Shown here: piece by piece, positions 8,656 through 55,682 of the stretch
Layout: every line of letters begins with the position of its first letter
How positions within the stretch are numbered: position 1 is the stretch's first letter
Assembly: GCA_003116975.1 (NCBI GenBank)
Contig: BGKB01000026.1
Span: forward strand, 868,001-932,000
From: Aurantiochytrium sp. KH105
Taxonomy: Eukaryota > Sar > Bigyra > Thraustochytrida > Thraustochytriidae
Length of the DNA stretch: 64,000 nt
Direction: 5' to 3'
Position numbers and translations under genes: made by a program
The notes under the pieces: generated by a model
What the model saw: the letters and a program-made list of their open reading frames with translations, nothing else
The model's database searches: none
Told to the model about the DNA's origin: nothing

Positions 8656-8693
8656 GGTTGCGCGCTTGGGCTTCCTAATCAGCTGTTATACTG

Positions 8694-8788
8694 CTGCGTG
8701 CTGCTGCTGCCTACTGTTGCCTGCTGCTGCCTGCTGCGTGCTGCTGCTGCTGCTGCTGCGTGCTGCTGCTGCTGCTGCTGCTGCAAAT
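8694..8788. repeat. CTG trinucleotide repeat tract
   Basis: Imperfect CTG/CTGCGTG repeats lie between the decayed zinc-finger frame and the acid phosphatase gene. They are not part of a convincing reading frame. Confidence 0.85.
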
Positions 8789-9096
8789 ACTAATGGGTTT
8801 GTTTACGTGGTGATTGTCACCCGAGCGCAGTGGCCGCGGTGTGCGAAACCCAATCTATATTAAGAGTCTCTTAGGAGTATACACTAAGTAGACTGCCGGC
8901 CGGCTCAAATCGGCGAAAAAAAATGTTTTACATCCTCGTGTACGAAATGTTTTTTCAGAACAACACTCGGCTGTTGGCCAGATTCAGGTTCTCATGGTTT
9001 TTGGCTCACACTAGCTCGTTCTCGCTCTGGCCGTCACCAGACAGACAACTAGCCTCACTACAACTATCTCGTCGTGAGGCGGCAAACGCGACCAGC

Positions 9097-17431: not shown

Positions 17432-17912
17432 AGGTCACCCTTGATTTGATGAAGTGCCCGAATGAGAGATTTCGAGTGATAAACGCCGTCAAGAAATCGT
17501 GCTCTCGAGCATTCCAACTCGATAGTAATGCCCCCTTTTCCACAAGCTGTCACTAATCATATGTGTTTCTGACTTCAATCCTTTGCAAAGGCTTCTGCTT
17601 TGCACGCACTTGTCTGCATCGTCCTCAGGCATCAACCATGCCAAGAGCACAATGGATTGGGTGTGACTCCTTTCAAAGGTTGTAGGCAGGACGGCCCGCG
17701 TGAGTCCCGATTCGCGTTGTGCAAGGGAACCCGCACGGTGCGTCGGTGCAAGACCTCCGGCATTTTACACGGGCGAGAACTCTCGAATAAGAAAGAGCGC
17801 GCGTTTGGCGCGGGAAGCACGCAGAAACCATTTGCACAAGAGCGACGCGCGCAAACCGGGCAGACTCGCGGGACCGAGCAGCGCGGCAAGCAGCAGGCGA
17901 GAACTTCGAAAG
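17432..17912. other. Intergenic region
   Basis: The region runs from the JmjC stop to the first microprotein. No other gene is visible; the distal part is presumably the promoter and leader of the microprotein at 17913. Confidence 0.4.
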
Positions 17913-18068
17913 ATGTGCTACAAGACGACGTGCCAGACGTGCCAGAAGACCACATGGGGGGGCTGCGGCGCGCACATCGACAGCGCGCTCAAGGGCGTGC
18001 CCAAGGACAAGCTCTGCACCTGCAGCGAGGCCGATAGGAAACCTGGTGCGGGGTGCTCCATCCAATAG
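17913..18068 (+). CDS. Cys-rich microprotein, copy A (51 aa)
   Basis: First member of the local family with the pattern MCYx3CxxCxKTTWGGCGxHIxSALKGVPKDxLCTC. It has CxxC (C7, C10), CxxH (C18, H21) and a terminal CTC, so binding of one metal ion such as zinc is plausible. It is the most divergent copy and carries an extra 11-residue tail with another cysteine (ending GCSIQ). I recall short proteins with this pattern in fungi, plants and bacteria as conserved proteins of unknown function; not checked. It is convergent with copy B. The start is fixed by the conserved MCY/MCF N-terminus. Confidence 0.75.
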   Translation: MCYKTTCQTCQKTTWGGCGAHIDSALKGVPKDKLCTCSEADRKPGAGCSIQ

Positions 18069-18792
18069 ATGTCCTAGGTCTCAGACCAAGCTGGGCAAGA
18101 CGATGACGGAGGCGCGTGATGTGGTTTTCGAGCAAGCAATCGCAATCGAGCGCGCGAATCCCGGAGCGAGGACGGGGTGGTGTTTCGCAGCGTGCGTATG
18201 GATAGACTAATTCAATTGAATCAGTGCGTGATGTGTTTTGGCTGTCTTGTCTGCTTAATTTTACAATGGGTGAAGCCTTTGAAAGTTGTCAAGTTGCTCC
18301 TGGAGATTGATTCGCTTGACATCTCGGGCTGGGGTCCAACTTTACTTTTTTGTTTTGGCCTCGGTGGCGGAAGAAGCGGGGCGAACATGATGCCGATGAC
18401 CTTGTCTTGATGGCTCTCGCTCGCTCATGCGTTTTCTCAATGATAACTTCGAAGACTCAGGCACTCTAGGCTTGTCATTGAAAAAAAGTGAATGGTAACG
18501 CTTGGTTGATCGCAACTTTATCGGTTTATAAAAGCTTAAGGTAAAGCACGAACACTCTCTGCCCACAATAGTTTGTTCTGCTGCCAACGAAGGAGGTGAT
18601 TTTCATCAAGCTACAGATCAATGTCGCCGTGATGCTTGGACGCCAGACATCCGAATTTTGCTGCGCTGAAGCAGCCCTTTTCGGGCCAACAAAAACTACT
18701 CGTGGCAGCACTCGCCCCGCACCGCGTGGCGTACTCCTTCTCCCGCAAGGCGACCCGCACCCTTGTCTTTGAGGCTCCGCCGTGCCGCTCCG
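18069..18792. other. Intergenic region between microproteins A and B
   Basis: This spacer separates two convergent microprotein genes. No gene is visible. Confidence 0.4.
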
Positions 18793-18915
18793 CTAGTCCT
18801 TCTTGCACGTGCAAAGCTGGTCCTTGGGCACGTCGCGAAGCGCGCTCTCGATGTGGTTGCCGCAGCCGCCCCACGTCGTCTTGCCGCACTTGCTGCACTT
18901 GACCTGATAGCACAT
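18793..18915 (-). CDS. Cys-rich microprotein, copy B (40 aa)
   Basis: An intact member starting MCYQVKC and ending CTCKKD, with all six family cysteines (C2, C7, C10, C18, C35, C37), H21 and the TTWGGCG core. It is on the minus strand, convergent with copy A. The upstream leader contains a (CTCTG)n repeat. Function unknown; metal binding inferred from CxxC and CxxH spacing. Confidence 0.8.
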   Translation of the reverse strand: MCYQVKCSKCGKTTWGGCGNHIESALRDVPKDQLCTCKKD

Positions 18916-18965
18916 GGTCGCGCCCTGCTCCCTCTCCTCTGTCCTGCTCTCCTCCGCTCGCCTGC

Positions 18966-19008
18966 GCTCTGCTCTGCTCTGCTCTGCTCTGCTCTGCTCT
19001 GCTCTGCT
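18966..19008. repeat. CTCTG pentanucleotide repeat
   Basis: About eight perfect CTCTG units lie about 50 bp upstream of the copy B start, hence probably in its 5' leader or promoter. Confidence 0.85.
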
Positions 19009-19269
19009 GCGCGTCGCGGCGTGCACGATGTTGCGCCTTTGCGCACCTCAAGCTGGCCTTCCGCCACTCCTTCCGCCGAGTGAAAATCTCCGTGCGGAAG
19101 AGGAGAACGCCGAGTCCCTCCTCCCCAAGAACGCGGTCACGACGCGCGCCGGGGACCGCGAGAGGAACCGCGAGAGGCTTCCCAGAATGGCCGATTTTAC
19201 AGACGCCATCACGAGATGCCGCTCGCAGTCGGCGGCAGGCGGGCGGGGCGTCGTCGTCTTTAACGTCGC

Positions 19270-19375
19270 TGCTTCTTGCAGGCTCTGCGCGAGCTGGTCC
19301 TCGGGCACGCCGCGGAGCGCGCTCTCAATGCGGGCGCCGAGGTCGCCTTGCAGCGCGCGTCGCACTTTATCGAGG
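19270..19375 (-). pseudogene. Frameshifted relic of the Cys-rich microprotein
   Basis: The minus strand reads IKCDARCKATS in one frame (equivalent to VKCDKCGKTTW of intact copies). It then continues as ARIESALRGVPEDQLAQSLQ in a second frame (equivalent to NHIESALRGVPKDQLCTCK). The GGCG core and terminal CTC are lost and no initiating MCF/MCY remains. It sits upstream of copy B on the same strand, marking a former additional copy. Confidence 0.65.
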
Positions 19376-20103
19376 ACTCTTCGACCTCGCGGAAAAGCTC
19401 ATCTTGGCCCAGCTGGCTGCTGCTCGATCGATGCGCGCGCGCCCAAGTTCTTCAAGGTGCGCGGGGCGCAGAGGTTGCGGGTGTGCAGGAGAAGAGGGCG
19501 CCGACGTGCGCTGGGATGAACGATATGACGACCGTCATGGCGGAGATGGCGGGCGCACAAGGACGAGGACACCGAGACGCAGAACTCCGACTTGGACGTG
19601 GACGAGGGCGGGGCCGAGGCGCACGAGCGGTCAGCTGGCCGTCGACGGGCGACCGCGCTCGTCCTACAGCCGCCACAGCCGACCGCGGCCGGGACGAAGA
19701 CGAGAAGGGACCCGCCACCGGAGAAAGCCGGGCAGCATGGCGTGCCCCGCTGTACAGCATGTCGCCGCAGAACAGCGGCAGCGGGTCGCCGGCCGTGGTA
19801 TTAGACGCGCGGCATCAAGGAGGACCTGCAGGCCGGCGAGAGGTCTGGCGACGTCGAGGCTGCGTGCTCGGTGCGGGACCAGGACGAGCAAGCATGGTGC
19901 GGCGAAATCACCGCGCATTTTTGCATGGAAAGAGCGAGCGGGCGGCAGGGAGAAAAACTCCGAGGACGCCAAAGCACCGCGCGCTGGGCCCGAGAGCCGG
20001 CAACGGCGGCGCGGGGAGCTGCAAACCTGCAACACTAGCAAGCGAGCAACCGGGCGAAGAAGCGAGCAAGACAAGCAAGCAATTAGCCAAGCAACCAAGC
20101 AAG
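19376..20103. other. Spacer upstream of microprotein D
   Basis: No independent gene is supported. The last 40 bases are purine/C-rich AAGCAAC-type repeats leading directly into the copy D start. Long open frames here are due to GC-rich composition. Confidence 0.4.
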
Positions 20104-20226
20104 ATGTGCTTCCAAGTAAAGTGCGACAAGTGTGGCAAGACGACATGGGGCGGCTGCGGCAACCACGTTGAAAGCGCGCTTCGAGGCGTGCCCAAGGATC
20201 AGCTTTGCACGTGCAAGAAGCGGTGA
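20104..20226 (+). CDS. Cys-rich microprotein, copy D (40 aa)
   Basis: An intact member starting MCFQVKCDKCGKTTWGGCG and ending CTCKKR, with H21 and six cysteines at 2, 7, 10, 18, 35 and 37. The same frame is open far upstream, but the conserved MCF start and the non-protein-like leader argue that translation begins here. It forms a convergent pair with copy E (339 bp between stops) and is the first unit of a 1.3 kb tandem duplication. Confidence 0.85.
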   Translation: MCFQVKCDKCGKTTWGGCGNHVESALRGVPKDQLCTCKKR

Positions 20227-20564
20227 TAGCGTCGTGAATGTATAGCAACACACAAAAGTCATGTATATTTTAGCGTAGTCAACCTTCCTTCCATTGTCCA
20301 GCCCCATGAGAATGCGCGTAGCGGTCTGTATACTTACTCAGTCGCACCCAAATGAAGCTGGGACAATGATGGCGTTACGCCTGTCATGTGAGATCGTCGA
20401 GATGCTCTAAAGCTCGGGACTGTTCCGGTCTGGCTTCCTGCATTTCCTTTTCAGACGGATCGTAATGAACCAATAAAGTAGGCTACATTTGATTTTCTTA
20501 CTTTTGATATTCATTCAGCAGCGACGCATCGCTTTACTTTATTGATTTGGCTCGATGTCCAACT
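20227..20564. other. Convergent spacer between microproteins D and E
   Basis: This is the shared 3' region of D and E. It is nearly repeated at 21523-21860 between F and G. No gene is visible. Confidence 0.4.
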
Positions 20565-20687
20565 CTAACGTTTCTTGCAGGCACAGATCTGGTCCTTGGG
20601 CACGCCTCGAAGCGCGCTTTCAACGTGGTTGCCGCAGCCACCCCACGTGGTCTTGCCGCACTTGTCGCATTTCACTTGAAAGCACAT
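20565..20687 (-). CDS. Cys-rich microprotein, copy E (40 aa)
   Basis: A minus-strand intact member starting MCFQVKCDKCGKTTWGGCG and ending QICACKKR, so the terminal pair is CAC instead of CTC. It is convergent with D and divergent from F across a 712 bp intergenic region that is duplicated between G and H. Function unknown. Confidence 0.85.
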   Translation of the reverse strand: MCFQVKCDKCGKTTWGGCGNHVESALRGVPKDQICACKKR

Positions 20688-21399
20688 GTTGGCTGGTCTT
20701 GTTGTTTGTCTTGACTTGTGGCTTCTCTGGTTTTGCTTGCTTGACGGTGTTGCGGGTTTGGTGCTCTCGAAAGGGCTGACATACCATCTGTAGCGGCCTT
20801 CGAATTTGGGTCAAGCAGTGGCCGCCCTTTGGTTGATCATGGCCCGGCCAAAAGTCTTCGTGCGGTGGCTCCGCCCGGAACAATCGTAAGACTCCCGAGG
20901 GGCTGGTTGCTGCTCCCAGTCTGGGCCCGCGGTACCTGCCCTGGCAGGGGGAGGAAGTCCACTCAGAACTGACCAGGCTCATGCACTCGTTTCTGCAGCT
21001 TGCTTGGTGAATAGAAATAAGGGACGCCTTGGCCTTTTCTCCGGGAAGCGTCGACGTCAATGGTGGTTGCGTGGTCAAGCTACCGCCCAGCCGTGCAAAT
21101 GTCCGCTCTCGGCACAATCACAAATGCAATGTGGCGTGCTATGGACGGCCGAATTCGGGAACGGAGAAATGATGCCATGACATGGGGAAAAGAGAGGGGG
21201 AAGAGAAACGGAGAAAAGGAAATTTGGAAGAAAAAAAAAAGAAAAGAAAACTCCGATGTCCGAGAGCCGAGCGGGAAACGTAGCGCGGCGCAGCGACCAG
21301 CAGCAAACCCGCAACCGCAAAGCAAGACAAGCAACCAAGCAACCAAGCAACCAAGCGGCTAAGCAGCCAAGCAGCCAAGCAGCCAAGCGACCAAGTAAG
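20688..21399. promoter_or_regulatory. Putative bidirectional promoter between microproteins E and F
   Basis: A 712 bp spacer between divergent starts, nearly repeated at 21984-22671. Near F it carries a poly-A/AG tract (21230-21250) and AAGCAACC/AAGCAGCC repeats abutting the ATG. The promoter role is inferred from orientation and conservation between the blocks. Confidence 0.45.
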
Positions 21400-21522
21400 A
21401 TGTGCTTTCAAGTAAAGTGCGACAAGTGCGGCAAGACGACGTGGGGCGGCTGCGGCAACCACGTTGAAAGCGCGCTTCGAGGCGTGCCCAAGGACCAGCT
21501 TTGCACCTGCAAGAAGCGGTGA
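21400..21522 (+). CDS. Cys-rich microprotein, copy F (40 aa)
   Basis: An intact member whose protein is identical to copy D (ending QLCTCKKR). It is preceded by an AAGCAACC/AAGCAGCC-repeat leader and is divergent from E and convergent with G. Confidence 0.85.
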   Translation: MCFQVKCDKCGKTTWGGCGNHVESALRGVPKDQLCTCKKR

Positions 21523-21860
21523 TAGCGTCGTGAATGTATAGCAACACACAAAAGTCATGTATATTTTAGCGTAGTCAACCATTCTTCCATTGTTCAGCCC
21601 CATGAGAATGCGCGTAGCGGTCTGTATACTTACTCAGTCGCACGATGATAAACTTGGGACCAAGATGGCGCTACGCCTATCATGTGAGATCGTCGAGATG
21701 CTCGAAAGCTCGGGACTGTTCCGGTCTGGCTTCCTGCATTTCCTTTTCAGACGGATCGTAATGAACAAATAAAGTAGGCTACATTTGATTTTCTTACTTT
21801 TGATATTCATTCAGCAGCGACTCATCGCTTTACTTTATTGAATTGGCTCGATGTCCAACT
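21523..21860. other. Convergent spacer between microproteins F and G
   Basis: Duplicate of the D-E spacer. No gene is visible. Confidence 0.4.
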
Positions 21861-21983
21861 CTAACGTTTCTTGCAGGCACAGATCTGGTCCTTGGGCACG
21901 CCTCGAAGCGCGCTTTCAACATGATTGCCGCAGCCACCCCACGTGGTCTTGCCGCACTTGTCGCATTTCACTTGAAAGCACAT
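21861..21983 (-). CDS. Cys-rich microprotein, copy G (40 aa)
   Basis: Minus-strand duplicate of copy E with the same predicted protein (ending QICACKKR). The DNA differs at a silent position in the NHV codons, which suggests the duplication is not brand new or that selection preserves the protein. Confidence 0.85.
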   Translation of the reverse strand: MCFQVKCDKCGKTTWGGCGNHVESALRGVPKDQICACKKR

Positions 21984-22671
21984 GTTGGCTGGTCTTGTTG
22001 TTTGTCTTGACTTGTGGCTTCTCTGGTTTTGCTTGCTTAACGGTGTTGCGGGTTTGGTGCTCTCGAAAGGGCTGACATACCACCTGCAGCGGCCTTCGGA
22101 TTCGAGTCAAGCAGGGGCCGCCCTTTGGTTGATCAAGGCCCGGCCAAAAGTCTTCGTGCGGTGGCTCCGCCCGGAACAATCGTAAGACTCCCGAGGGGCT
22201 GGTTGCTGCTCCCAGTCTGGGCCCGCGGTACCTGCCCTGGCAGGGGGAGGAAGTCCACTCAGAACTGACCAGGCTCATGCACGCGTTTCAGCCAAGCAGC
22301 TTGCTTGGCGAATAGAAATAATGGACGCGTTAGCTTTTTCTCCGGGAAGCGTCGACGTCAATGGTGGTTGCGTGGTCAAGCTACCGCCCAGCCGTGCGAA
22401 TGTCCGCTCTCGGCGTTGACGAATGCACCGTGGCGTGCTAGTGGTGTATAGTATACTAGTGGTATGGACGGCCGATGTCGGAAGCGGAGAAATGACGGAG
22501 AGGAACGGAGAAAAGGAAATTTGGAAGAAAAAAAAAGAAAAGAAAACTCCGATGTCCGAGAGCCGAGCGGGAAACGTAGCGCGGCGCAGCGACCAGCAGC
22601 AAACCCGCAACCGCAAAGCAAGACAAGCAACCAAGCAACCAAGCAACCAAGCAACCAAGCAACCAAGCAAG
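21984..22671. promoter_or_regulatory. Putative bidirectional promoter between microproteins G and H
   Basis: Duplicate of the E-F spacer with small indels, including a roughly 24 bp insertion near 22438-22462. Five perfect AAGCAACC-type units end at the H start codon. Confidence 0.45.
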
Positions 22672-22794
22672 ATGTGCTTTCAAGTAAAGTGCGACAAGTG
22701 TGGCAAGACGACGTGGGGTGGCTGCGGCAACCACGTTGAAAGCGCGCTTCGAGGCGTGCCCAAGGACCAGATCTGCGCCTGCAAGAAGCGGTAA
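22672..22794 (+). CDS. Cys-rich microprotein, copy H (40 aa)
   Basis: Last member of the cluster, on the plus strand but ending QICACKKR like the minus-strand copies E and G. This hints at gene conversion between opposite-strand members. The downstream sequence is unrelated to the D and F spacers, marking the end of the duplication. Confidence 0.85.
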   Translation: MCFQVKCDKCGKTTWGGCGNHVESALRGVPKDQICACKKR

Positions 22795-39716: not shown

Positions 39717-40401
39717 GCATAGCACTCTTCGTCACCTCTTTCATCAGAGGAAGAAGCATCCCATCACTCTTCTGACTCACATGCCAGATGAAACCAACCC
39801 TGTAAAATCGTGAAATACAAACTCTTTGAAAATGATCATGAATCACAAATTTCCGACGTACGTACGTCTTTGCATTCCCCCCCCTTTTTCCCTTTTTCCT
39901 TTGGATGAAGAGCATGCTGTCCTCATTTCCTTTCCAAGAAACAGTCATTCCACGTGCTTCACGAGTGGCAAAGTGAGCGTGCGCGCCAAGATGGTGGTGT
40001 ACGTACAAAGCTCTCACCATGTAGCCTCCACCGTGGCCTCGTCCAGAAAGAGTAAAACCTTCCACCATGGCAGGAACTATCTATGAGTGAATCGATGGCA
40101 CGTGGAAGACTACGTTTGGCGGCGATTCTCGACACCAGACCTGAATCGAGGGGGTCTTCTCAAACGAGCTGCCACTCGCGCTGCGCGAGGGAAGGAAAGA
40201 GGGCGAGTGGCGTGTTCGTACGTACGCAGGGAGGCACGCGGGCGCAGGCAGGGCAGGCAGGGCCGGGTTCGCGGTGCGTCTGACACCCTGGAAGGCAGGC
40301 CGAAGCTCGATACGATCGAGCCCCGAACAAACGTACGCCGAGCGCACGCACGCGACGAGACACGCGGAGGAGCAGAGCAGGTCTTGCAGGCTGCAGGGGA
40401 A
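39717..40401. other. Intergenic region
   Basis: No gene is visible. An open frame from 40087 leads into the next CDS, but it has no ATG before 40402 and its composition is R/G-rich. Confidence 0.4.
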
Positions 40402-41151
40402 ATGTCGCGCTCATTGCGAACCGACATCTTTCCAGTAGGAGGAGACGATGATGAGAGGGAGAGAGATCAAGAGGGTCTCGTGATCATTTTCCAGCGCCGA
40501 AAAGCCGAAACGCGGTACCCGGAGCAGGTGAAAGCTGTGCAGGAAGGGTGCTCGGCAATTGGACTTCAGGCTTTTGAGTGGAATGACTTCTTTGCGCAAT
40601 ACATTCGCACGGAGGGCGAGAACCGCCTTCTCGGCCCTCCAGACTCGCTAATGAGAGAAATTTCCATGCGAGAGCTCTTGCAAATTTTGTCTGACTGTGG
40701 CCGTGACATAGCCTTTGCTGGCGCGGCCGAGCGCAACCTCTTTATCACGGTTGCGCTCGTTCACGCAATGCTGACAATGGTTGTGCTCACATTCTTTCAA
40801 ACGATCCCGCATTTTATCCTGTGGAATGTTCTGGATCTTGTTGTTCTGCTAATTCTTTTCCTTTTTCTACTCGAGATTTACAATTGCAAAAAGTACAACA
40901 AACCCTTTCAGATGTCACTTTCAGGACCAGCACGTCGGTATCGTAATGCCATTGAAGAGCGTCTGGCGAATGCAAATGCCAGGTATCCCAAGCTTCTCTT
41001 TGAGTATGAATGGAACTGGATACAGCTCAGTCTGGGACGCATGGAAGTTGTCGCCGTACGATCGCGTGAGAGCATTGGCGACGGCGTTGGCGACGTGGCT
41101 ACTACGGACACCGACGCGCCTGACCAGCAATCGTTCCTTGATCAGGTGTAG
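40402..41151 (+). CDS. Predicted two-transmembrane protein, unknown function
   Basis: 249 residues from MSRSLRTDIF, the first ATG of the frame. The N-terminal half is cytosolic-type and includes FQRRKAETRYPEQV and FFAQYIRTEGE. Two adjacent hydrophobic helices occupy about 118-160 (LFITVALVHAMLTMVVLTFF and VLDLVVLLILFLFLL), separated by a short IPHFILWN loop. The C-terminal tail is helical and soluble. I recognise no family. The hairpin topology would put both termini on the same side of the membrane. Confidence 0.65.
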   Translation: MSRSLRTDIFPVGGDDDERERDQEGLVIIFQRRKAETRYPEQVKAVQEGCSAIGLQAFEWNDFFAQYIRTEGENRLLGPPDSLMREISMRELLQILSDCGRDIAFAGAAERNLFITVALVHAMLTMVVLTFFQTIPHFILWNVLDLVVLLILFLFLLEIYNCKKYNKPFQMSLSGPARRYRNAIEERLANANARYPKLLFEYEWNWIQLSLGRMEVVAVRSRESIGDGVGDVATTDTDAPDQQSFLDQV

Positions 41152-41785
41152 TACGAGAACTTGCCCTGTCTGAAAATGATGTAGCAAACAGTTCGTTGAA
41201 TTTCACAAAATTAAAAAAAAATGTACGTAGTAGGTATTGCATGATTTTGATTCGGTCAAGCGTTGAAGTCATGAGTCAAGTAGCTTTCTTCCTGTTCGAG
41301 GGACTTGTGTTGAATTGTAAAAAATAAGAGAAGAACACGTCGTACCCTTCGTCAGCTGCTGTCTCAGCTTTCGATTTTAGCATTTAATTTGCGAGCTGGG
41401 AAACGCGCGTCCACAGGCAAGCAAGCAAGCAAACGAGAACCATTGACTGTCCAAATTCGCACTACATTCGCAGACAGCTTGGCATGCAAATTTTATCGAT
41501 GATCTTCAATAATCAGTGAAGGTTCCAGAGGTTCTTCGCACTTAACGACCGTCTTTGGTCGACGACGAGTAAACAAACGACGACAAGAGGACTCTCTCTC
41601 TCTCTCGTCCTCTCTCCCGCGCGCCGGGGGGAACACCCTGTCCGCACCAAAGAGCAATCGACGTCCGGCAAAAGCAACACGTAGACGTGGGCGCGGTGGC
41701 GGCGAGTCCAGTCCCAGCTTTGTTTGTGCAACCTCGACACCATTGGTCGCTCCATACCGGCGACACCCTCATTCCGGGACCGACC
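41152..41785. other. Intergenic region
   Basis: AT-rich at the start (A-run at 41211-41221), then a CTCTCT tract (41593-41605) shortly before the RING-protein gene. No gene is visible. Confidence 0.4.
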
Positions 41786-46790: not shown

Positions 46791-46991
46791 CCATTGATTT
46801 CGACATAAACACAAAATTGCTCTTGGATTCTATGAATATTTGGCCACTTTGTAACGCTTCGATTTCTTGCGCGAAGTTGATCATTGGCGTAACAAAATCT
46901 GATTTTATTTTTTTTAATCTCGATGGCAGAGGATGCGACGTTCAAATTTCTGTAAAAGTGGGGTTCATTCAAACCACAGGGCAGGTGTCTT

Positions 46992-49900
46992 TCAAATGCT
47001 CTGCATAGTTTCTTCCAGAGCATGTGCTAGGCGCTCACGAAGTGTTGCGTCCACGACAAGCTGCTCACGGAACATTCTGGAAATGGAAAGATCAAGTGCC
47101 GTGGCGCCCGGCTGCGCCAAGGAGAGGTACTGATTCGAAAGGTTCGTCCAGGACTTCCCACCTCGTCCAGCATAAGACGGATCACAATTCACAACCCAAT
47201 CGCTTCCGACGGCTTTTTGAAATGATTCGAGAGCTGCCTTCTTTAGGCCCTCGCAGACATCCGGGCGATGCTTCTCCAATGCACCGAATCCAAGTGTGAT
47301 GGCACCACGCGCACCACTGCTGGATTCCATCCAATCCTTTCGACCGTGGCAAACGACAACCATACCGTTGTCATTTGCGTCTGCCCAAGTTCCGAGCGCC
47401 CCATAAAAGGGGGACTGGAGCTCCTTGCCGTTTTCAAGGTGATTCGGGTCGACGCTCTTAGGGTGCGGAAGCATTGTTTGTTCTGAACGAAGAATCTCTG
47501 TCATGTCCCAAAGCAGGGAAGCTCCCTGGAGAACCTCTGCTATGGACTGAGCGAAAAAGTCAACGTGAGGCTGCGAGTTCATGATAGACGCATCTCGTGA
47601 AACAGCAGCCCCATGACTTGAAACAAGCAAAATCTGCTGGCCCCCAGTCGTGTTCAAATTCGCCTTCGGAGCAGGGATGGAATCCGCTAAAGTCTGCAGG
47701 TCTTCACGCTGCAGCGAACCTTTGACGGCCGAGGCTAAGCGCGAAGACATTGGGTCCTTAGCAGCCGATGGCCTCTCGCTGGACACAAAGCAACGAATAT
47801 TATCGGCGACGCTCAGAGGTTCGCCCGTGGGGCTATCCTCCAAAGTAAGGAGGACTGCCAAGGAAATGTAACTGGGAGCGACAGCGGTGGTTAGCGTGGA
47901 TATCAGCTGCTCCGAAGCTTCAGCTGCAGACATCCATTCATGGAAAACTTCCGCACTTGCTTCACTTGCAGCCTCCAAGAGTCGCTCCTGGAGCTTGCTC
48001 AGCCTTTTCGTGATTGGTATCAGGTCCTTTTTATCTGAAAGCGCAAGGGAAGCCGCGTCGGCGCCGAGATTCGCCTGGCGCACTCTGTAAAAGATTTCTG
48101 CCGCATGCAAAAAGACTTCTCGGCTCTCAGTGAAGCGTCCGCTTCGGTCGAAGTATTCGCCAAGCGCCTTGAGAACGCGGCCGACCCGTTCATGAACATA
48201 TCCATAATAGTTCACAGTGATCTCGAATGCTTGGACGAGTGCCTTGTCATCCGCCTTGCCGAGGGCTTCGCGCGCGCGATGCACGTTCTCCAGAGCCAAT
48301 GCAATCGCGGGGTCGTTCCTTGCAAGAATGCTCTCACGAATGTCAAGGCAGCGCTCGGCACTTGAAAGGGCCAGCTCATACTTGCGGAGTTCGCGATAAG
48401 TAACCGAAACACCGCCAAGGGATTTTGCTGTCTCTGGGTGCTCGGCTCCGAAGAGACGCTCTCTATGTTCGAGCGAAGCGATGCGTAGTTGGAGTGATGC
48501 CTCGAGAAGCGACGTTCGCTCCTCGGCGCTTCCACCCTCGCGACGAATCGAACGCGCTTCTTGCAGAAACATAGCGGCTTGCGTTGCTTGCATCTCAGCC
48601 AAGAGGCGGATAGATGAACGAGAGGGCTCTCCAGACTCAGCGATGAGAGCCTCCAGACGACGGATATTCTCGCTACCGCTCTCGGTGATCTGTGGCGTAC
48701 GCTCACCTCGACGGTATGCGATAAGCAACAGTCCAAACCTTGCTTTCACTTGAGCGAGCGAGCCTGGTGCATTTTCTTCTTGGAGATCAACAACCTTTTG
48801 TTGCACCTTAGCGGCTGCATCGAACCAAGACATGCGCAGAAATAGAGTTGCGAGGCGTTGGAGCGCGTCAGGGGGCGTTGCATCAGTAATGGAAGCAAAG
48901 TATGCTGCCTCTAGTCTCGATTTTGCAGCTGCGTACGAGGACGTGGGCTGACGCCGAAGGTATTGCTGCGTCATTTCAATCGCTTCGCTTAAGGTACCAC
49001 CGGAAAGAGAGGTCTGAGCCTCGTTCATGCAAACTGAGCCATGATGTTCAACAAAAGCGTCCCAGTCTGCAAGTCGCATGAGCTGAAATGGGAGTTCTGC
49101 GGCTCTGCGAAGGTTGTATGACTCCCGAGACCCGTATGCCAAAGGTTGCGGATTGATGAGACGCGCGAACATTTTGCCATTGTATTCTTTTCCTTCCCCG
49201 TATCGGCCGGAGAAGTAATCGACGAGGAGCTGGCGAATTGACAATTCTGCGTCAAGATCCTGCATATAGCGATCTCTCGACACCGAAGCGAGGAGCGCAG
49301 AATTCCAGGTGTACAGTCGCGCTCCAGAATCAGCCTGAGGCGCACCGTGAAAAAGAAATGGCCGGAAAACGTCAATAACTTGTTCGACCACCACCTTGGG
49401 ACACCGCCGCACAGGACGATCCCAGTACTGATAGACAGTATCGAGAATTGAATCGTCGATGCTGAGGATATCGAGTAGTTCCTTCTCACTCAGCCCAAAG
49501 CGAGAAACGGTGAGGAGAGAGGCCACGGCCCCAACAACAGAAGCCCCATGAAAATGCTCTGCTCGCTCGAAAATACCAACAATCGGATCTGTAAAATCGC
49601 TGCTTGGATCAAACCACGACGTCCAGCCGCCAGCGAGCTTTGCGAGAGCTCGTGTACGAGTCGCCGACCAGCCTCCGTCACCATTTGCAATCGACGAGAG
49701 AAGAACCTCGCTCGCATGTTTCATGTGTGACTCGGTCAGCTGACGATGCGCCAAGTGAAGATGGTGTTCTAGCATGCTCGTAAGATGAACCTTGTTTGTG
49801 AAGCTGGCGCCCATTTCCATCCAAGTAACTGAATGCTCATCAACAGAAGGTTCTTGGGCGCTAAAAAGCAGGGCTTGGCCCTCGAGGGGAGGAATGAAGG

Positions 49901-51623
49901 ATGATAGAGGACGATCGAAACAATCAAGACCATCAAAAACGAGCACGATACTGCCAGGTGCGTGCCCGCGAAGCGCTGCGAAGAATCTAGAGCGTGCTGC
50001 GTCCCACGAAACTTTCCCGCTCTCATCGTCATCGAACTCGTCTTCATCAGATGACGAGCCTCTCTCGAAGGCTTTAAGCCACTCCAAATGACGCGAAACA
50101 GAGAGCATGAAAGCAACAGAGTCACCCACGTAACTCACGAGATGACGGTAGATAACCTTGACTCCCAGCGATGATGAAAGAGACTTTGCAAGGAGTGCAA
50201 GAATCGTGCTTTTTCCGATTCCTGGGTCGCCGTAAACGCCGACGATCCGAGGATCCGATGAGCCTGCATACTCTAGCGTCTCTTGCGAGTCATGAAGAAC
50301 GGCAGAGACAGCCTCTGTCTCGATGGCGTGTTTGCAGAACTCAAGGCACAACTCGATATGAGCGCAGTATTCACGCATGAACGAATTCTCGAGAACCTGA
50401 ATAGCAGAAGCAGCTTCGATGAGAGCAGCAGCACCGGCAGCAAACGCTCCCCAAAGAAAACCTCCTACAACTCCAGGAACCAAGTCCTTAGAACTTGCTT
50501 TGAGGGTTGCGTAATCGACTTCATAGTCCTCGATGCGAGTGCGCGGGAGACGATCACTCACGAGCTCCCGCAGATGAGCAACGCTCGACGCTTGATTGTC
50601 GAAAAAGTCTTTGTTGCTTGGTTCCGTAACATTGGATAGGTCACGTTGGAAGCAAAATGCCTGTTGGGCGGCGTCTGGATTCTCAAGAATACCCTTCTCC
50701 ACTTCGCGAAAAGTGACAGACTTGTGAAGGTCTTCAATCAAGCCAGATAGACCAGCGGCGGTCCCAATTTCGAGAAGAACTTTATGAACGACATCCTCGG
50801 GAACAGTGTCCGATGAGAGCGGCTGAACAAAGTAAGCTGCATCAAGGTCATTCAGATCCTGTTGGTATGCCTGCAGAAGAAGATCCGTATGCTCACCAGC
50901 ATGCTCCAACAGCGTACTCATTGTAGTTGAGTCGATTCGGGAAGGGACATCGCGGTATCCATACTTGTCCGTACTGATAAAGAGGAAGCTGAGCGCGTCA
51001 CTCTCGGCATTGGTCTTGCCGATTGCCCGCAAGCAGGTCTCCGTGGTCAAGTGGGAATGGGTCATCTCGTCGGAGATACCCCAGCGCATCTCAATGGCCT
51101 CGTACTCGCAACCAAGAGCACGAGCTAGACTTTGGAGGTGACCATCGACGAGAAGGAGAAATGAGTCACGCTCGACGCGAGTATCCGTGAAAGTTGACGA
51201 TATAAACACCTTCACTGTGGCAGAAAGACATCTGGGCACACTCTCGGGAAGAGGAATTTGAGACAGTAGCTCAAGTTTTTCATGCTTGGATAGAATCAGT
51301 GCGGTCTCTGCACGAAGCGTTGATGACAACTCGATGATGGATTGCCAGAGTTTGCTCTTTTGGACATCTCCGAGCTGCGAAAGAGCTTGGACATCATCTC
51401 GCAGACTCTCCACAGGCAGCCCCGCTTCTTCAAGAGCACTCAGCAGCGCCGAGAAGGACACACTCGAGGCCACGTCTTTAACCGCATACTCGAGCGCCAA
51501 CGCTTGCTGCGCTGCTTTGCTCGACTTGCGCGTAGATCTCCGCTTCACGAGCGAGACACGATTCGTGCTGCGCGGCTCTTGTCGCTTCGCCCGCGCGGCC
51601 CCCTTCGATTGTCGCCCCCCCAT
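46992..51623 (-). CDS. NLR-like protein: myristoylation signal, DUF4062, NACHT P-loop, TPR, amidohydrolase-like C-terminus
   Basis: A 1543-residue single-exon protein. The N-terminus MGGRQSK fits an N-myristoylation signal (G2, S6, K7). Residues about 137-225 (VKVFISSTFTDTRVERD, RWGISDE) are the DUF4062-type domain found at the start of TEP1, NWD1 and NPHP3-like proteins. Walker A is GDPGIGKST (465-473) and Walker B LVFDGLD (561-567), as in NACHT/STAND ATPases. About 900-1250 is helical with kinesin-light-chain-like TPRs (ALSSAERCLDIRESIL). Residues about 1327-1543 form a module with SSHGAAV, VVVCHGRKDW, WVVNCDPSYAGRGG and ALDLSISR, shared with the divergent neighbour. STAND proteins act as signal-triggered oligomerising switches. 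An immune or stress role here is inference. Confidence 0.85.
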   Translation of the reverse strand: MGGRQSKGAARAKRQEPRSTNRVSLVKRRSTRKSSKAAQQALALEYAVKDVASSVSFSALLSALEEAGLPVESLRDDVQALSQLGDVQKSKLWQSIIELSSTLRAETALILSKHEKLELLSQIPLPESVPRCLSATVKVFISSTFTDTRVERDSFLLLVDGHLQSLARALGCEYEAIEMRWGISDEMTHSHLTTETCLRAIGKTNAESDALSFLFISTDKYGYRDVPSRIDSTTMSTLLEHAGEHTDLLLQAYQQDLNDLDAAYFVQPLSSDTVPEDVVHKVLLEIGTAAGLSGLIEDLHKSVTFREVEKGILENPDAAQQAFCFQRDLSNVTEPSNKDFFDNQASSVAHLRELVSDRLPRTRIEDYEVDYATLKASSKDLVPGVVGGFLWGAFAAGAAALIEAASAIQVLENSFMREYCAHIELCLEFCKHAIETEAVSAVLHDSQETLEYAGSSDPRIVGVYGDPGIGKSTILALLAKSLSSSLGVKVIYRHLVSYVGDSVAFMLSVSRHLEWLKAFERGSSSDEDEFDDDESGKVSWDAARSRFFAALRGHAPGSIVLVFDGLDCFDRPLSSFIPPLEGQALLFSAQEPSVDEHSVTWMEMGASFTNKVHLTSMLEHHLHLAHRQLTESHMKHASEVLLSSIANGDGGWSATRTRALAKLAGGWTSWFDPSSDFTDPIVGIFERAEHFHGASVVGAVASLLTVSRFGLSEKELLDILSIDDSILDTVYQYWDRPVRRCPKVVVEQVIDVFRPFLFHGAPQADSGARLYTWNSALLASVSRDRYMQDLDAELSIRQLLVDYFSGRYGEGKEYNGKMFARLINPQPLAYGSRESYNLRRAAELPFQLMRLADWDAFVEHHGSVCMNEAQTSLSGGTLSEAIEMTQQYLRRQPTSSYAAAKSRLEAAYFASITDATPPDALQRLATLFLRMSWFDAAAKVQQKVVDLQEENAPGSLAQVKARFGLLLIAYRRGERTPQITESGSENIRRLEALIAESGEPSRSSIRLLAEMQATQAAMFLQEARSIRREGGSAEERTSLLEASLQLRIASLEHRERLFGAEHPETAKSLGGVSVTYRELRKYELALSSAERCLDIRESILARNDPAIALALENVHRAREALGKADDKALVQAFEITVNYYGYVHERVGRVLKALGEYFDRSGRFTESREVFLHAAEIFYRVRQANLGADAASLALSDKKDLIPITKRLSKLQERLLEAASEASAEVFHEWMSAAEASEQLISTLTTAVAPSYISLAVLLTLEDSPTGEPLSVADNIRCFVSSERPSAAKDPMSSRLASAVKGSLQREDLQTLADSIPAPKANLNTTGGQQILLVSSHGAAVSRDASIMNSQPHVDFFAQSIAEVLQGASLLWDMTEILRSEQTMLPHPKSVDPNHLENGKELQSPFYGALGTWADANDNGMVVVCHGRKDWMESSSGARGAITLGFGALEKHRPDVCEGLKKAALESFQKAVGSDWVVNCDPSYAGRGGKSWTNLSNQYLSLAQPGATALDLSISRMFREQLVVDATLRERLAHALEETMQSI
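46995..47645 (-). other. C-terminal FGase-like module of the NLR-like protein
   Basis: Segment encoding residues about 1327-1543. The motif order is: strand plus HG; DPN; VCHGRK; GAITLGFGALE; GSDWVVNCDPSYAGRGG; ALDLSISR. This parallels N-formylglutamate amidohydrolase-like enzymes (Pfam FGase), where histidine, acidic and arginine residues in equivalent motifs form the zinc and substrate site. Family membership is my inference from motif order. Confidence 0.5.
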
Positions 51624-52733
51624 GGCGCCGCGTTCCGTCTCTGCTACCCACGTGATCGGCAGCCACGGCAGACAAACACGCGCAACGCAGCGAGCGCAAC
51701 GCGCACTCGCTTCACGCGCGGGCCCTGGCCGGCCGGCCGGTCACGGCACGTGCAGGCTTGCCTTCTCACGAGAGGTGTGTGTGCGCTGTGCGCCGCGGTG
51801 TGGCGAGGAGCCTACGCCTTTGCCCTAGCGGGGCGCTAGCAGGTCTGGTCATCGCAGACTGGCGCCTGCTGCGAGCGAGGGATTCTTGGATGATTTCCAG
51901 CTGCGCATGGCTGGCTGGCTGGTTGCCTTGCGCCATGGATGGCCGCCGCGTCGGCCGTCTGGACTCGCTCCGGACGCCGGCCGCGCCCGCGCTCTTCAGC
52001 TGCAGCAGGCTCGCGCGTCACGACGGGCCTCGCTTCCCCGCGCGGGCTGCAGCTGCAGCTGCGCCAGGAGAGCTTTTTTTTGGGCGGCGCAGGTTCTCCA
52101 GGCAACTCCAAGAAGGCTCTTCAACCTGGCTTGCGACTTGCTTGCTCGTGTCTCTCCTTTTACTTACTTTTTGCGTACTGCAGCAGCGCAGTCCGGCCGG
52201 CACGTGCACACGCCCGCTCCCATTCGCGCCACTCCACCCCGCCCCCTCCGCGCGCAGCATCGGCGCGGCCTGCAGCGCCGAGCCGGCGGTCCTCGCGCGT
52301 CTCGCCCGGCCCGGGCTCGCCCGGCCTGGCCTCGCCTCGTCTCCCTCCCGCCTCCGGGCATCCGTCCGTCCATCCATCCATCCATCCATCCATCCATCCA
52401 TTCATCCAGCTTTCGTCTCGTCTCGTCCAGCGCATCTCCATCCGCCGCCCGCATCACATCCCGCGGCCCTCGCGCGCTGGAAACCTGCGGACCCCTTTCG
52501 CGCGGCGCCTCGGCCCCGCGCTGGCCTGGCTCCGGCTCCTGCTCTGCGTCTGCGTCTGCGTCTGCGTCTGCCTGGCCGGGGCCGGCCGCGGCCTCTGCGC
52601 GCGAGCGGCGGGGGGCGGGCGTCCGAGAGCGACCCCGCCGCGAGCCTGCGGCGGGCAGCAGCAGCAGCGGCAGCAGCAGCAGCAGCGGCAGCAGCAGCAG
52701 ACCCGGAGCGCGGAGGAGGAGGAGGCGCTCGCT
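51624..52733. promoter_or_regulatory. Divergent promoter region of the NLR/FGase-like pair
   Basis: A 1.1 kb GC-rich region lies between two divergent starts. It contains a (TCCA)n microsatellite (52361-52407), GTCTGC repeats (52546-52575) and GCAGCAGCAGCGG repeats just before the plus-strand start. The plus-strand frame is open from 51939, but the peptide is simple-sequence (for example repeated PSIH) and is treated as leader. Co-regulation of the pair is inferred. Confidence 0.45.
52361..52407. repeat. TCCA tetranucleotide microsatellite
   Basis: About ten (TCCG/TCCA) units in the divergent promoter region. Confidence 0.9.
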
Positions 52734-54125
52734 ATGCAGCAGGAGGAGAGCGGGAAGAAGATGAGGGCCAAGGACTTCTGCGAAGACGTGCACAAGGCGG
52801 CGCGGGCCTTGTTCTACGGGGAAGGCCCGCCGATGCCACCGCTGGCCACTTCGGGCGGGGAAGGCGCGGCCTTGGCCAAGGAGACTCACATGCTCAACAT
52901 CAAGGCGGAGGAGGGTCTCCTGAGCATGGCGCTGTGCAAGGCAATTGATGAGCTTGCAAGCCTCGAAGTATCGAGGGAGAACAGCTCCCGAGCCTTGGCT
53001 CTCTTGGAGCTCGCCATCGAGATCGCCGGGGGAAACAAGGAAGCCGGATCTGAAGCACGGGAAAACCTCGGCGAGAAGCTCGATGGTCTTCGCGAGACAA
53101 TTCGCAGTGCAGAGGACAATCCTGATGAGATGGCCACGTGGGCAAAGAACCTTGCGAGCTCCGCAGGCGCTCCTGCCCCCGACGACATCGGGACGACAAT
53201 TTCCAAGTTGGTGAACGGAAGATGGTCAATGCTGGCGCACATTATGCAGGTTGTTCCCGGCGCGGACGGCGAACCTTTGCAGAGTGCACAGCTTGGACGC
53301 AATGCGAAACGAAAGGTCAAAGCTGCTGAGAATGTACTCCAGTCTCGATTCCAAGACCAGCTCAATCTCTCTGAAGATGTTACTCTTGCGCTTCGCCGAA
53401 ACCTTCCTCTGCCGGCGGTAGTGTCCAAGAGTTTTGGATCTGAGCGTGCCATCTTCACCGCACCTCACGGTACTTATGTCGTTCGCAAAGAAGGAGAGCT
53501 TCACCTCGCAGAGAACTATGCTTCGTTTGTTGCGGAGGGTCTGGCGCAACTGTGCGGAGGAGAATTTATTGGATGGAGCCCTGCTGAAATATTTCGCTCT
53601 CAGGAATCGAAATTGCCCCACCTCCAAGCCTATGATCCCAATTTCACCCCGCTTGGAGCCGAAAAGCCTGAGGGCTTTCACGGCGTGCTAAATAATGCGC
53701 TTTCGCAATGGTCGAAGACCTCGAAAGACGAGCAAGTGCTTCATTTTGATTGTCACGGCCGGAAAAATTGGAAAGTGGGCGAGGCTCAAGGTGCCGTAAC
53801 GGTTGGAATGGGTGCACTGGAAAGGTATGCGCGCTCAGTTTCAAACTTTCGTCTGACAGAAGCAGAGATTATCGAAGCCAAGACAACGATTGTGCACGCA
53901 ATTCAAGCCGGGCTTGGGTCTAATTGGGTCGTGGACGCCAATCCGAAATACGCGGGCGCCGGCGGAGATTCATACAGAACCATGACCCGAATGTCTGTGG
54001 ACGCCCTGGAGGGCAAAATTCTCGCCGTTCAGCTAGAGATGAGCCGCGACTTTCGGATTGCTCTGGTGCTTGACTCAGGCCTTATGCAACGCTTTGCATC
54101 TTCTTTGAAATCAATCAGACTATAG
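52734..54125 (+). CDS. Stand-alone FGase-like protein, paralogue of the NLR C-terminus
   Basis: 463 residues from MQQEESGKKM. Residues about 236-463 match the C-terminal module of the divergent NLR-like gene motif for motif: TAPHGTYVV (NLR SSHGAAV), YDPNF (DPNH), FDCHGRKNW (VCHGRKDW), GAVTVGMGALER (GAITLGFGALEK), GSNWVVDANPKYAGAGG (GSDWVVNCDPSYAGRGG) and AVQLEMSR (ALDLSISR). Similarity extends upstream (GEPLQSA / GEPLSVA), so the gene resembles a copy of the last third of the NLR without the sensor and ATPase. The pattern suggests an N-formylglutamate amidohydrolase-like fold. Candidate substrates (N-acylated amino acids or peptides) are speculation. The frame is open to 51939, but the extension looks untranslated. 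Confidence 0.8.
   Translation: MQQEESGKKMRAKDFCEDVHKAARALFYGEGPPMPPLATSGGEGAALAKETHMLNIKAEEGLLSMALCKAIDELASLEVSRENSSRALALLELAIEIAGGNKEAGSEARENLGEKLDGLRETIRSAEDNPDEMATWAKNLASSAGAPAPDDIGTTISKLVNGRWSMLAHIMQVVPGADGEPLQSAQLGRNAKRKVKAAENVLQSRFQDQLNLSEDVTLALRRNLPLPAVVSKSFGSERAIFTAPHGTYVVRKEGELHLAENYASFVAEGLAQLCGGEFIGWSPAEIFRSQESKLPHLQAYDPNFTPLGAEKPEGFHGVLNNALSQWSKTSKDEQVLHFDCHGRKNWKVGEAQGAVTVGMGALERYARSVSNFRLTEAEIIEAKTTIVHAIQAGLGSNWVVDANPKYAGAGGDSYRTMTRMSVDALEGKILAVQLEMSRDFRIALVLDSGLMQRFASSLKSIRL
53439..54122 (+). other. FGase-like module of the stand-alone protein
   Basis: This is the catalytic-type segment shared with 46995-47645. In the stand-alone copy the acidic residue before the central HG is kept (FDCHGRK), whereas the NLR copy has VVCHGRK. 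That may mean the stand-alone protein is the active enzyme and the NLR module a decoy or weaker enzyme. Confidence 0.5.
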
Positions 54126-54273
54126 GCCTAAAAGGGCTGGAATTTGGCAAGCGGAGAAATCGTTGTTCGATCATTGCTTGCTGAAATACTGAAATGCAAT
54201 ACATCACCTGAAATAATCGATTTTAAATTCTTTCATGAGTGAAACCTTTGTGTGCGTGAGGAGAATTAAACGC

Positions 54274-55200
54274 TTAGGCCATCGACTTTGTCACTGCATC
54301 GCGAAACATGTCTAGACAAGCAGGGAACGAGTCAGGATGTTGCCGGAGGAAGCCATCAACAAAGACTGCGCTGTTGATCTCCATGACCATAAATCCACTT
54401 GAATTAGCGTATGTTTTTTCCGTATCCGAGGCCTTGTCAAGGTCAAGTTGCACAATGTCAATGGATGCAAAACGGAGGCCCAAGGCAGACATTGCCTGCT
54501 TTGCAAGTGGAAAGAGTGATCCGTCGATGAGATCCTTCTCCACCTCCACGGATGTTGTGGCTCCTAGCGAGACATTGTGACGCCATTCCGTGCCGTGGCG
54601 AAGCTTACAATAACACACATAGAGCTCTTGGTCAAGTACCATCAAACGCCACTCTTTGTCGAGGTGAAAAAGGGGACTAATAGCAAAGTCCCGTGCACCT
54701 CCTCGAAGAAGCTGAAGCCAGCCAGCTTCGACCTCAAGTGGCGTTTGTGCAAGGATGACGTTGCGCCCGCTGTTTCCATCCTTCGGTTTCAGAACTAGAC
54801 CACTCGGGTTCTCTTGCAGCATTTTCATCAACGGTGCAATGGTGCCCTCGGATGCGCGGCGCTTGCTGGCCATTGTGTATTGCACGGTCGGACCAAATAC
54901 GAGAGTATGAGGAACGTGGGGAACTCCAGCATCAGTGAATACTGCAGCTGCCGAAACTTTGTCAAGGGCAAGATTAGCCGAGGATTGCGAGTTAAGCGGA
55001 AATGCACACCCTGTTACCACGCATCGCTTCTGTTTGCTTTCGTCCTCAATGATGCAGATCCAACCATTGGAGATGGTCTTCATTTGCATGCCGCGCTCAT
55101 CCACAATCTGCTGCAGAATCCGCACGAGCGGTCGCCCTTTTGGCGCCGGTTTCACAGCTGCAGCAACATCTTCGTTGCCGCTGGCAGTCTTCGCAGACAT
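54274..55200 (-). CDS. ATP-grasp enzyme, RimK/cyanophycin-synthetase-like
   Basis: 308 residues from MSAKTASGNE. ATP-grasp features in order: LDKVSAAAVFTDAGVPHVP (lid of the N-terminal ATP-binding half), VLKPKDGNSGRNV (ATP-binding glycine loop), DKEWRLMVLDQELYVCY, FASIDIVQLD, and MVMEINSAVFVDGF (Mg-binding Glu/Asn). ATP-grasp ligases join a carboxylate to an amine or thiol via an acyl-phosphate. RimK, glutathione synthetase and cyanophycin synthetase are the nearest patterns I can name. The protein is compact and lacks a large N-terminal substrate domain. Substrate unknown. The gene is convergent with the FGase-like gene (148 bp apart). Confidence 0.8.
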   Translation of the reverse strand: MSAKTASGNEDVAAAVKPAPKGRPLVRILQQIVDERGMQMKTISNGWICIIEDESKQKRCVVTGCAFPLNSQSSANLALDKVSAAAVFTDAGVPHVPHTLVFGPTVQYTMASKRRASEGTIAPLMKMLQENPSGLVLKPKDGNSGRNVILAQTPLEVEAGWLQLLRGGARDFAISPLFHLDKEWRLMVLDQELYVCYCKLRHGTEWRHNVSLGATTSVEVEKDLIDGSLFPLAKQAMSALGLRFASIDIVQLDLDKASDTEKTYANSSGFMVMEINSAVFVDGFLRQHPDSFPACLDMFRDAVTKSMA

Positions 55201-55682
55201 TTGATTTTCTCGCTCAGTCTCTTTTTTTCACTTTCTCGCGCGCGCGCGCGCGTTGAGTCCGGACGCTGAACGAGAGAAAGAGCAGACCACGACCCCGTCT
55301 TCTGCTGTCGCTTGTACGAAGCGGCGCCGCACGTATGACTGACTGGATAAGCTTTTGTGGATGTGGCCTTTACCTTTTGCACAAGCCAGCCTTTTACATT
55401 GTCATACTACTTCATACATCGAGTAGTGGCATCCTGAGATTGGCATGCAAAAGGAATTTATGGCGAACAACGACAAATGAGAAAAGGATAGTGATAGATG
55501 ATAGAATACGGGTTGTAGGGTAAAAAGCGCGACGCTGCAACGTGCGCTTGTTGGTCGCTCGTTTTCGCGCGCACACAGAGAGAGAAAGTATTTTAAAATT
55601 TCAGAACTGACGTGGAGATCGACACTGATCAATTTCGCGCGAAAAAAGGTTGGAGAAAGAAGAAAATAAGACAGACCTGGGA
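55201..55682. other. Intergenic region
   Basis: The region lies upstream of the ATP-grasp gene and downstream of the kinase gene (both minus). It has a GC dinucleotide run (55239-55252). No gene is visible. Confidence 0.4.

Follow-up and report, generated by a model that had tools for sequence, protein, structure and literature searches.

A block of three genes that is cleanly absent from a collinear second copy of the same region is present in the window, the whole stretch of 64,000 nucleotides analysed here from Aurantiochytrium sp. KH105 (contig BGKB01000026.1, positions 868,001 to 932,000). The block (46836..55467 of the window, 8632 bases) comprises a receptor gene, a divergent stand-alone gene whose product shares the C-terminal module of the receptor, and a putative ATP-grasp gene. 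The reading that we favour, tentatively and at somewhat less than an even chance for all its parts together, is that the locus is a dispensable cassette of three genes, for a STAND/NLR-type receptor akin to NWD1 and NPHP3, for a metallo-hydrolase-like protein that stands alone and has the fold of N-formylglutamate amidohydrolase (FGase), and for an ATP-grasp protein; the sensor of the receptor would be a pseudo-hydrolase.

The extent of the cassette was defined by blastn of the window against contig C1 (420001-480000) and by alignment of the junctions. Contig C1 is the collinear second copy; all three genes are missing from it together, and 66 other, TTC-rich bases stand in their place. This absence was judged from a 4 kb DNA search of the genome and from direct alignment of C1. 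Searches of the genome at E up to 0.001 matched the module and the ATP-grasp protein nowhere outside the cassette; the receptor's further matches at this threshold are paralogues with its common domains. The remaining DUF4062 genes of the genome are found at two places each, which is not proof of two haplotypes. A transposon or mobile-element origin was considered and set aside, since no repeat joining the ends was present among those listed (20 of 24 direct families and 25 of 45 inverted pairs) and no target-site duplication was seen at the junctions. The third-position G+C content of the cassette genes (0.53, 0.59 and 0.53) was compared with that of 13 other ORFs, unverified as genes (nine from the window and four paralogue or TPR genes; 0.57-0.74); two of the three genes have values under the whole set of 13, though by a small margin, and a foreign origin was not accepted on a difference that is not decisive.

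The receptor gene (46992..51623, minus strand) encodes 1543 amino acids, and its ORF and Pfam matches give the order DUF4062, STAND ATPase, NWD1-type winged helix, TPR and hydrolase-like module, all of the following being on the minus strand. The TIR-like DUF4062 domain (residues 138-227; 50943..51212) was matched at E 2.7e-5 with 24.7 bits, exactly the curated cut-off, and with 29.6 bits in the genome search. The P-loop region (residues 449-571; 49911..50279) matches AAA_16 above cut-off (E 3.9e-8), and with an intact Walker A (GDPGIGKS, 465-472) and Walker-B-like motif (VLVFDGLD, 560-567) it has the features of a STAND ATPase. It is followed by an HTH_NWD1 winged helix (residues 675-789; 49257..49601; E 4e-12, above cut-off) and by a C-terminal repeat sensor region matching TPR_12 above cut-off (E 5.8e-15), the best stretch of which is residues 1033-1098 (48330..48527). 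The original prediction had named DUF4062, a NACHT-type P-loop and TPR-like helices; the domains and the Walker A stand, while the NACHT model itself fell below its cut-off (E 0.051). The NPHP3-specific Pfam models were likewise all below cut-off: TPR_NPHP3 with 34.4 against 100 bits, NPHP3_N with 20.5 against 24.8, and NPHP3 with 17.7 against 33.

DUF4062 is described as a TIR-like NADase with a catalytic Glu (E97 of KpSwz, E1008 of TEP1) that adjoins NACHT in human NWD1, NWD2, TEP1 and NPHP3 (PMC13174449). The same paper reports no NADase activity for purified human NWD1, NWD2 and NPHP3, so that the absence of the Glu from proteins of this group may mean little. The Glu is present in 5 of 5 paralogues aligned, and the receptor has Ala200 in this column (TCLRAIG, window 51018-51038, in the CLxE helix); the catalytic column was assigned from its place in an alignment without a KpSwz or TEP1 row.

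The stand-alone gene (52734..54125, plus strand, 463 aa) has a putative start codon at 52734 (ATG), and both divergent genes thus lie where the original prediction had placed them. BLASTP of the whole proteins aligned minus 1232-1537 with plus 144-459 (E=6e-36, 28% identity), the part common with the receptor being residues 144-463 of the plus protein; the integrated domain of the receptor is therefore homologous to a separate host protein, as in an integrated decoy. The module proper (receptor residues 1327-1543; 46995..47645, minus strand) is 28-32% identical between the two proteins, and its score was reached in none of 300 shuffles (z=52). The linker segment upstream of it (receptor residues 1232-1326; 47646..47930, minus strand) is also shared, and the similarity here, as had been anticipated, is weaker (plus 144-236 versus minus 1232-1327; z=4.3, reached in 1 of 300 shuffles). 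Residues 1-143 of the plus protein are unlike the receptor, their scores being reached in 168 and 242 of 300 shuffles. None of the receptor's DUF4062, ATPase, winged-helix or TPR domains was found in the plus protein by Pfam at E up to 1, and its N-terminal part scanned alone gave TPR_14 at E 0.75 as the sole match. The locus thus places a STAND/NLR-type receptor next to a separate protein that is homologous to its C-terminal module and lacks the receptor's other domains.

The module is enzyme-like, as had been supposed, and the class of enzyme is tentatively suggested by its modelled fold. As a catalogued family it could not be placed by sequence: convincing matches were absent from Pfam, NCBIfam and the PDB (short PDB matches, E 0.13-1.4), and FGase was found in neither protein by Pfam or NCBIfam, nor in the plus protein among Pfam matches to E 10. 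An NCBIfam aldolase model matched the plus protein at E 0.005 and was rejected, having 15.8 of 250 bits and lying outside the module. Alignment of the module to FGase with hhalign gave E values of 0.058, 0.0086 and 0.015, none significant alone; hhalign P-values are weak, and shuffle controls are the better test. The better structural model superposed on 2odf at 4.4 A (Foldseek TM 0.53), and leans towards FGase because its alignment was picked for in-register motifs (one of 47 such among 113). Uridine phosphorylases appear from rank 2 in Foldseek, E below 0.001 being reached by 2odf only; nucleoside phosphorylases and pyroglutamyl peptidases are further entries in the VIA-align list. On these models the stand-alone protein was judged to have the FGase fold. 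It shares with FGases (Pfam FGase; PDB 2ODF, 2Q7S) the order of strands and helices, the two conserved His of the module and a Glu in the last long strand; unlike them, the module is 13-19% identical in our alignment (A6), lacks a Pfam match and bears a CHGRK.W signature rather than HSFTP. The genome encodes a second FGase, above the Pfam cut-off, in which the first His is preceded by Pro; BLASTP of the plus module against it was not significant (E 0.28).

The His columns (H27 and H123) are kept in 16 of 16 rows of the alignment and the Glu column (E217) in 15 of 16. All 14 bacterial relatives aligned have the Glu, as does the stand-alone copy (Glu435 in QLEMSR, window 54030-54047); the receptor copy, which keeps both His, has Ser1513 instead (LDLSISR, window 47076-47096). 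Lacking the invariant Glu, the receptor module is probably a pseudo-hydrolase that binds without cutting, as judged from these residues. An Asp preceding CHGRK was at first considered a further catalytic residue missing from the receptor copy; this was abandoned, since bacterial FGases have no such Asp. The residue before the first His (EH/DH) is acidic in all 14 FGases, 13 having Glu and one Asp; it is Pro in the plus copy and Ser in the minus copy, and 40 of 51 FGase-invariant residues, including the SR, NR and FTP letters, are missing in both. The stand-alone copy may therefore be no active enzyme of the FGase kind, which weakens our preferred explanation and strengthens the case for genes with no functional link. 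The original prediction also took the module to be the effector, and this part was not supported for the receptor: the module lacks the conserved Glu and sits at the C-terminal end, where three scanned paralogues carry WD40 or TPR, and the executioner position is held by the N-terminal DUF4062, itself without its presumed catalytic Glu.

The putative RimK-like ATP-grasp gene (54274..55200, minus strand, 308 aa) lies inside the cassette and is the single match in the genome. Its product matched Pfam RimK with 18.2 bits, under the 21-bit cut-off (E 0.002), and PDB 3vpb (E 4.6e-4), which is deposited as 'putative acetylornithine deacetylase' and which we take to be a LysX-family ligase. ATP-grasps of the RimK/LysX type join amino acids. 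Among the fold relatives of the module are poly-gamma-glutamate hydrolase, N-acetylmuramoyl-alanine amidase and the carboxypeptidase CCP5, whose structure was solved with Glu-peptide analogues.

In the mechanism that we propose, the pseudo-hydrolase of the receptor would read whatever engages the neighbouring hydrolase: a small ligand or peptide common to both or, by integrated-decoy logic, an invader protein that attacks the enzyme. Binding would let the ATPase switch, and the receptor would oligomerise at a membrane, a location suggested by its N-terminus (MGGRQS), which presumably fits the N-myristoylation signal. Since its own DUF4062 lacks the presumed catalytic Glu, output would pass through partners, either the stand-alone protein, if active, or DUF4062 paralogues which possess the Glu, and the role of the whole would be in defence. 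A bolder version, which we regard as quite unlikely, makes the cassette an NLR-guarded writer-eraser-reader: the ATP-grasp protein would mark a protein or small molecule through an amide link (e.g. glutamyl), the hydrolase would erase this mark, the dead domain would read it, and an invader upsetting the balance would trip the receptor. It fits the joining activity of RimK/LysX-type ATP-grasps, and poly-gamma-glutamate hydrolase, CCP5 and FGase fit amide or glutamyl bonds.

The arrangement recalls immune gene pairs of plants and fungi. In plants, paired NLRs with integrated decoys are known (RGA5/RGA4, RRS1/RPS4) and show presence/absence variation, although the receptor's protein family is unrelated to plant NB-LRR. 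The likeness lies in a receptor with a non-typical integrated domain, a head-to-head partner and presence/absence variation; the partner here, with no ATPase or DUF4062 at E up to 1, is a stand-alone enzyme-like homologue and not an executing second NLR. In the fungal NWD2/HET-S pair, a STAND receptor adjoins a separate protein with a common homologous segment (PMC3321046), and on this precedent the cassette could, as the original prediction had it in outline, be a sensor-effector pair working by homotypic contact, in which the stand-alone hydrolase is drawn in and switched on by the pseudo-module and acts as executioner. This is possible, if unlikely: the altered NADase site of the receptor would call for a separate enzyme for output and the Glu is kept in the stand-alone copy alone of the two, but the NWD2 segment is a short N-terminal amyloid motif, whereas the common part here is an enzyme-like domain of more than 200 residues at the usual sensor end, and the hydrolase, whose toxicity would be conjectural, lacks many FGase-invariant residues.

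Compared with the NWD1/NPHP3/TEP1 group, the receptor has the same order of DUF4062, STAND ATPase, NWD1-type winged helix and repeats, and differs in its additional Glu-less module and in the change of the DUF4062 Glu to Ala; the cassette adds the stand-alone homologue and the ATP-grasp gene and is missing from contig C1. We think it rather unlikely that the receptor is a non-immune, NPHP3/NWD1-like regulator; it would then be a STAND protein of the membrane or flagellum that carries an extra domain, a duplicate of this domain would lie close by, and the presence/absence difference would be neutral. The HTH_NWD1 match, the weak NPHP3 models, an MGxxxS N-terminus (which we take to be shared with NPHP3) and the retention of the other DUF4062 genes at two places would agree with this, but those NPHP3 models are under cut-off, and one would not expect a conserved ciliary gene with a housekeeping role to be lacking, along with both neighbours, in one copy of its region. 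It is improbable that the genes are functionally unconnected, the shared tail having been duplicated from one neighbour to the other and the presence/absence being an ordinary insertion or deletion; the low identity of the modules, the dissimilar plus N-terminus and the missing FGase invariants speak for it, and against it are two open frames, common motifs kept at 32% identity, and a Glu-bearing and a Glu-less copy in one divergent block. We give hardly any credence to a selfish toxin-antidote or drive cassette, of which one product harms cells or spores without the block and another protects: the block is compact, in one copy only, and its module and ATP-grasp are unmatched elsewhere in the genome, but known killer families are absent among the matches, PADLOC found nothing at E up to 0.01, no repeat among those listed joins the ends, and no target-site duplication was seen.

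Relatives of the cassette proteins were sought more widely. A second example of the pair was not found in the sequence collections searched. Two degenerate peptide patterns for the module gave 32 and 61 matches in IMG/VR and the genome collection, none confirmed; since only exact matches to a pattern register in such scans, distant relatives are not excluded. No module was found in plasmids by tblastn up to E 1. For the ATP-grasp protein, 16 pattern matches in viral contigs were not confirmed, and tblastn of plasmids gave one 26% piece in Haladaptatus (E 0.02). In agreement with the original prediction, no described system of such architecture was found in the open-licence literature, judged by title and abstract opening, nor in the open-licence literature searched was FGase paired with ATP-grasp or NACHT.

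Land plants offer the best-known receptors into which a copy of another host protein is integrated. If a protist has built such a sensor into a DUF4062-STAND protein of the type found in human NWD1, NPHP3 and TEP1, this would suggest that the integrated-sensor strategy originated more than once. The writer-eraser-reader version, if true, would be to our knowledge the first protist system of this sort with a presence/absence polymorphism. The cassette would give a system in which to ask what such proteins detect for free-living protists, and the presence/absence difference makes that question testable by natural genetics.

The receptor gene (46992-51623, minus strand) is an ORF of 1543 residues, and the stand-alone copy of its C-terminal module is encoded on the plus strand at 52734-54125, giving 463 residues from an inferred ATG at 52734, upstream of which the frame stays open through low-complexity sequence. 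This divergent pair lies where the original prediction had placed it, and the C-terminal module said to be common to both proteins, together with a weaker similarity upstream of it, was borne out. Alignment of the two proteins paired receptor residues 1232-1537 with plus-strand residues 144-459 (E=6e-36, 28% identity); the similarity of the module (receptor residues 1327-1543) was 52 standard deviations over shuffles, that of the segment preceding it 4.3, and plus-strand residues 1-143 had no similarity to the receptor in these shuffle tests. Among three candidates scored in a search of all six frames of the 76-Mb genome, only these two loci carried the module.

The module is predicted to have an N-formylglutamate-amidohydrolase (FGase)-like fold. 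In an alignment of 16 rows (14 FGases and the two window copies) two histidines are invariant, and a glutamate in the last long strand, presumably equivalent to the residue that serves M14-type carboxypeptidases as general base, is found in 15 rows, the sole exception being the receptor copy (Ser1513). The glutamate motif is MIEIRND in the FGases and QLEMSR in the stand-alone copy. Since it keeps this residue, the stand-alone protein is, as judged by alignment, the better equipped of the two and a putative enzyme. Of the 51 columns that do not vary among these FGases, each window copy retains just 11 (chance about 2), and where they have an acidic residue ahead of the first histidine, the stand-alone copy has Pro and the receptor copy Ser; both features would count against an active enzyme in either copy. 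The second FGase of the genome, which exceeds the Pfam cut-off, also has Pro at this position. This protein (locus L055) diverges from the canonical FGase (locus L054) and has, by eye, a hydrophobic stretch upstream of its FGase domain.

As originally predicted, Pfam matched DUF4062 (receptor residues 138-227, with a score exactly at the cut-off), an ATPase of STAND type (AAA_16, residues 449-571) and TPRs, strongest at 1033-1098, as well as an NWD1-type winged helix (675-789). The Walker A motif and a Walker-B-like stretch are intact. The receptor begins MGGRQSK and one DUF4062 paralogue MGQKPSSS, starts which we take to fit the N-myristoylation consensus. The genome contains 11 DUF4062 matches, the receptor and ten forming five pairs; three pairs are near-identical proteins, and the other two were called because their members score equally and have frames of almost the same length. 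Three DUF4062-STAND paralogues, at two places each (loci L028 to L033), were scanned with Pfam; two have WD40 tails, one of these with a myristoylation-like start, and the third has a TPR tail and terminates in CVVM, presumably a CaaX-like prenylation motif.

A 2026 preprint (PMC13174449) describes DUF4062 as a TIR-like NADase with a catalytic glutamate; it reports activity for bacterial Swarozyc and for human TEP1, and none in its assay for human NWD1, NWD2 and NPHP3. The glutamate of the CLxE helix is kept in all five aligned paralogues and is Ala200 in the cassette receptor; from TIR topology we infer that this column is probably the catalytic one.

Window 3332-64000 has a collinear counterpart in a second contig (C1), with 87-95% identity in the long aligned pieces and a region of reshuffled repeats around 18-23 kb. 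Here a repeat of approximately 115 bp, which may represent a small element of dispersed or foldback type, occurs in many copies and both orientations (17910-22793, locus L048, and the matching part of C1). Absent from C1 is window 46836-55467 (8.6 kb), which contains the predicted receptor and plus-strand genes and, as a third predicted gene, an ORF on the minus strand at 54274-55200. The C1 flanks are 97% identical up to 46835 and 96% identical from 55468, with 66 TTC-rich bases between them. The only other stretch >1 kb without a C1 counterpart in the part compared is 6528-8969, which wholly contains no ORF of at least 250 residues; this 2.4 kb adjoins a region tandemly repeated in C1. The other DUF4062 genes and the two FGase genes served as a control, and each of them is found at two places. 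We read the window's copy and C1 as a diploid's two haplotypes; a pair of homeologous genomes would give the same picture. The difference is read from assembled contigs, and either presence or absence may be ancestral. Elsewhere, window 40057-41183 (1.1 kb) has an extra copy on a third contig (C113:126991-128120, 94.7% identity), its surroundings having none in the 30 kb of that contig compared.

The third gene, missing from the original prediction, shares the presence/absence block with the receptor pair. It is predicted to encode a RimK-like ATP-grasp protein (sub-threshold Pfam match, E 0.002; PDB 3vpb, which we take to be a LysX-family ligase, E 4.6e-4) and has no further match in the genome.

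With its switch intact and a key glutamate lacking at each of its two enzyme-like ends, the receptor would act via partners. Our tentative preference, held at less than even confidence, is that its module is a sensor or decoy of the neighbouring enzyme-like protein, since the module lies at the sensor end with its histidines kept and its glutamate lost, and a better preserved twin adjoins in one divergent block. The main rival, the sensor-effector pair originally proposed, would make the stand-alone protein an executioner; it resembles NWD2/HET-S (PMC3321046), and we consider it possible though rather doubtful. NPHP3-specific Pfam models match the receptor weakly, under their cut-offs, and a non-immune NPHP3-like role seems unlikely. 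That the cassette genes have no functional link is very improbable, and that the cassette is selfish slightly more so.

The individual parts, namely DUF4062-STAND proteins, FGase-fold hydrolases, ATP-grasps and integrated-domain receptors, are already known; neither their combination nor such a combination on only one copy of a region was found in searches of open-licence literature, judged mostly by title and abstract. The presence/absence difference would, purely by analogy, fit loci of defence or allorecognition better than housekeeping.
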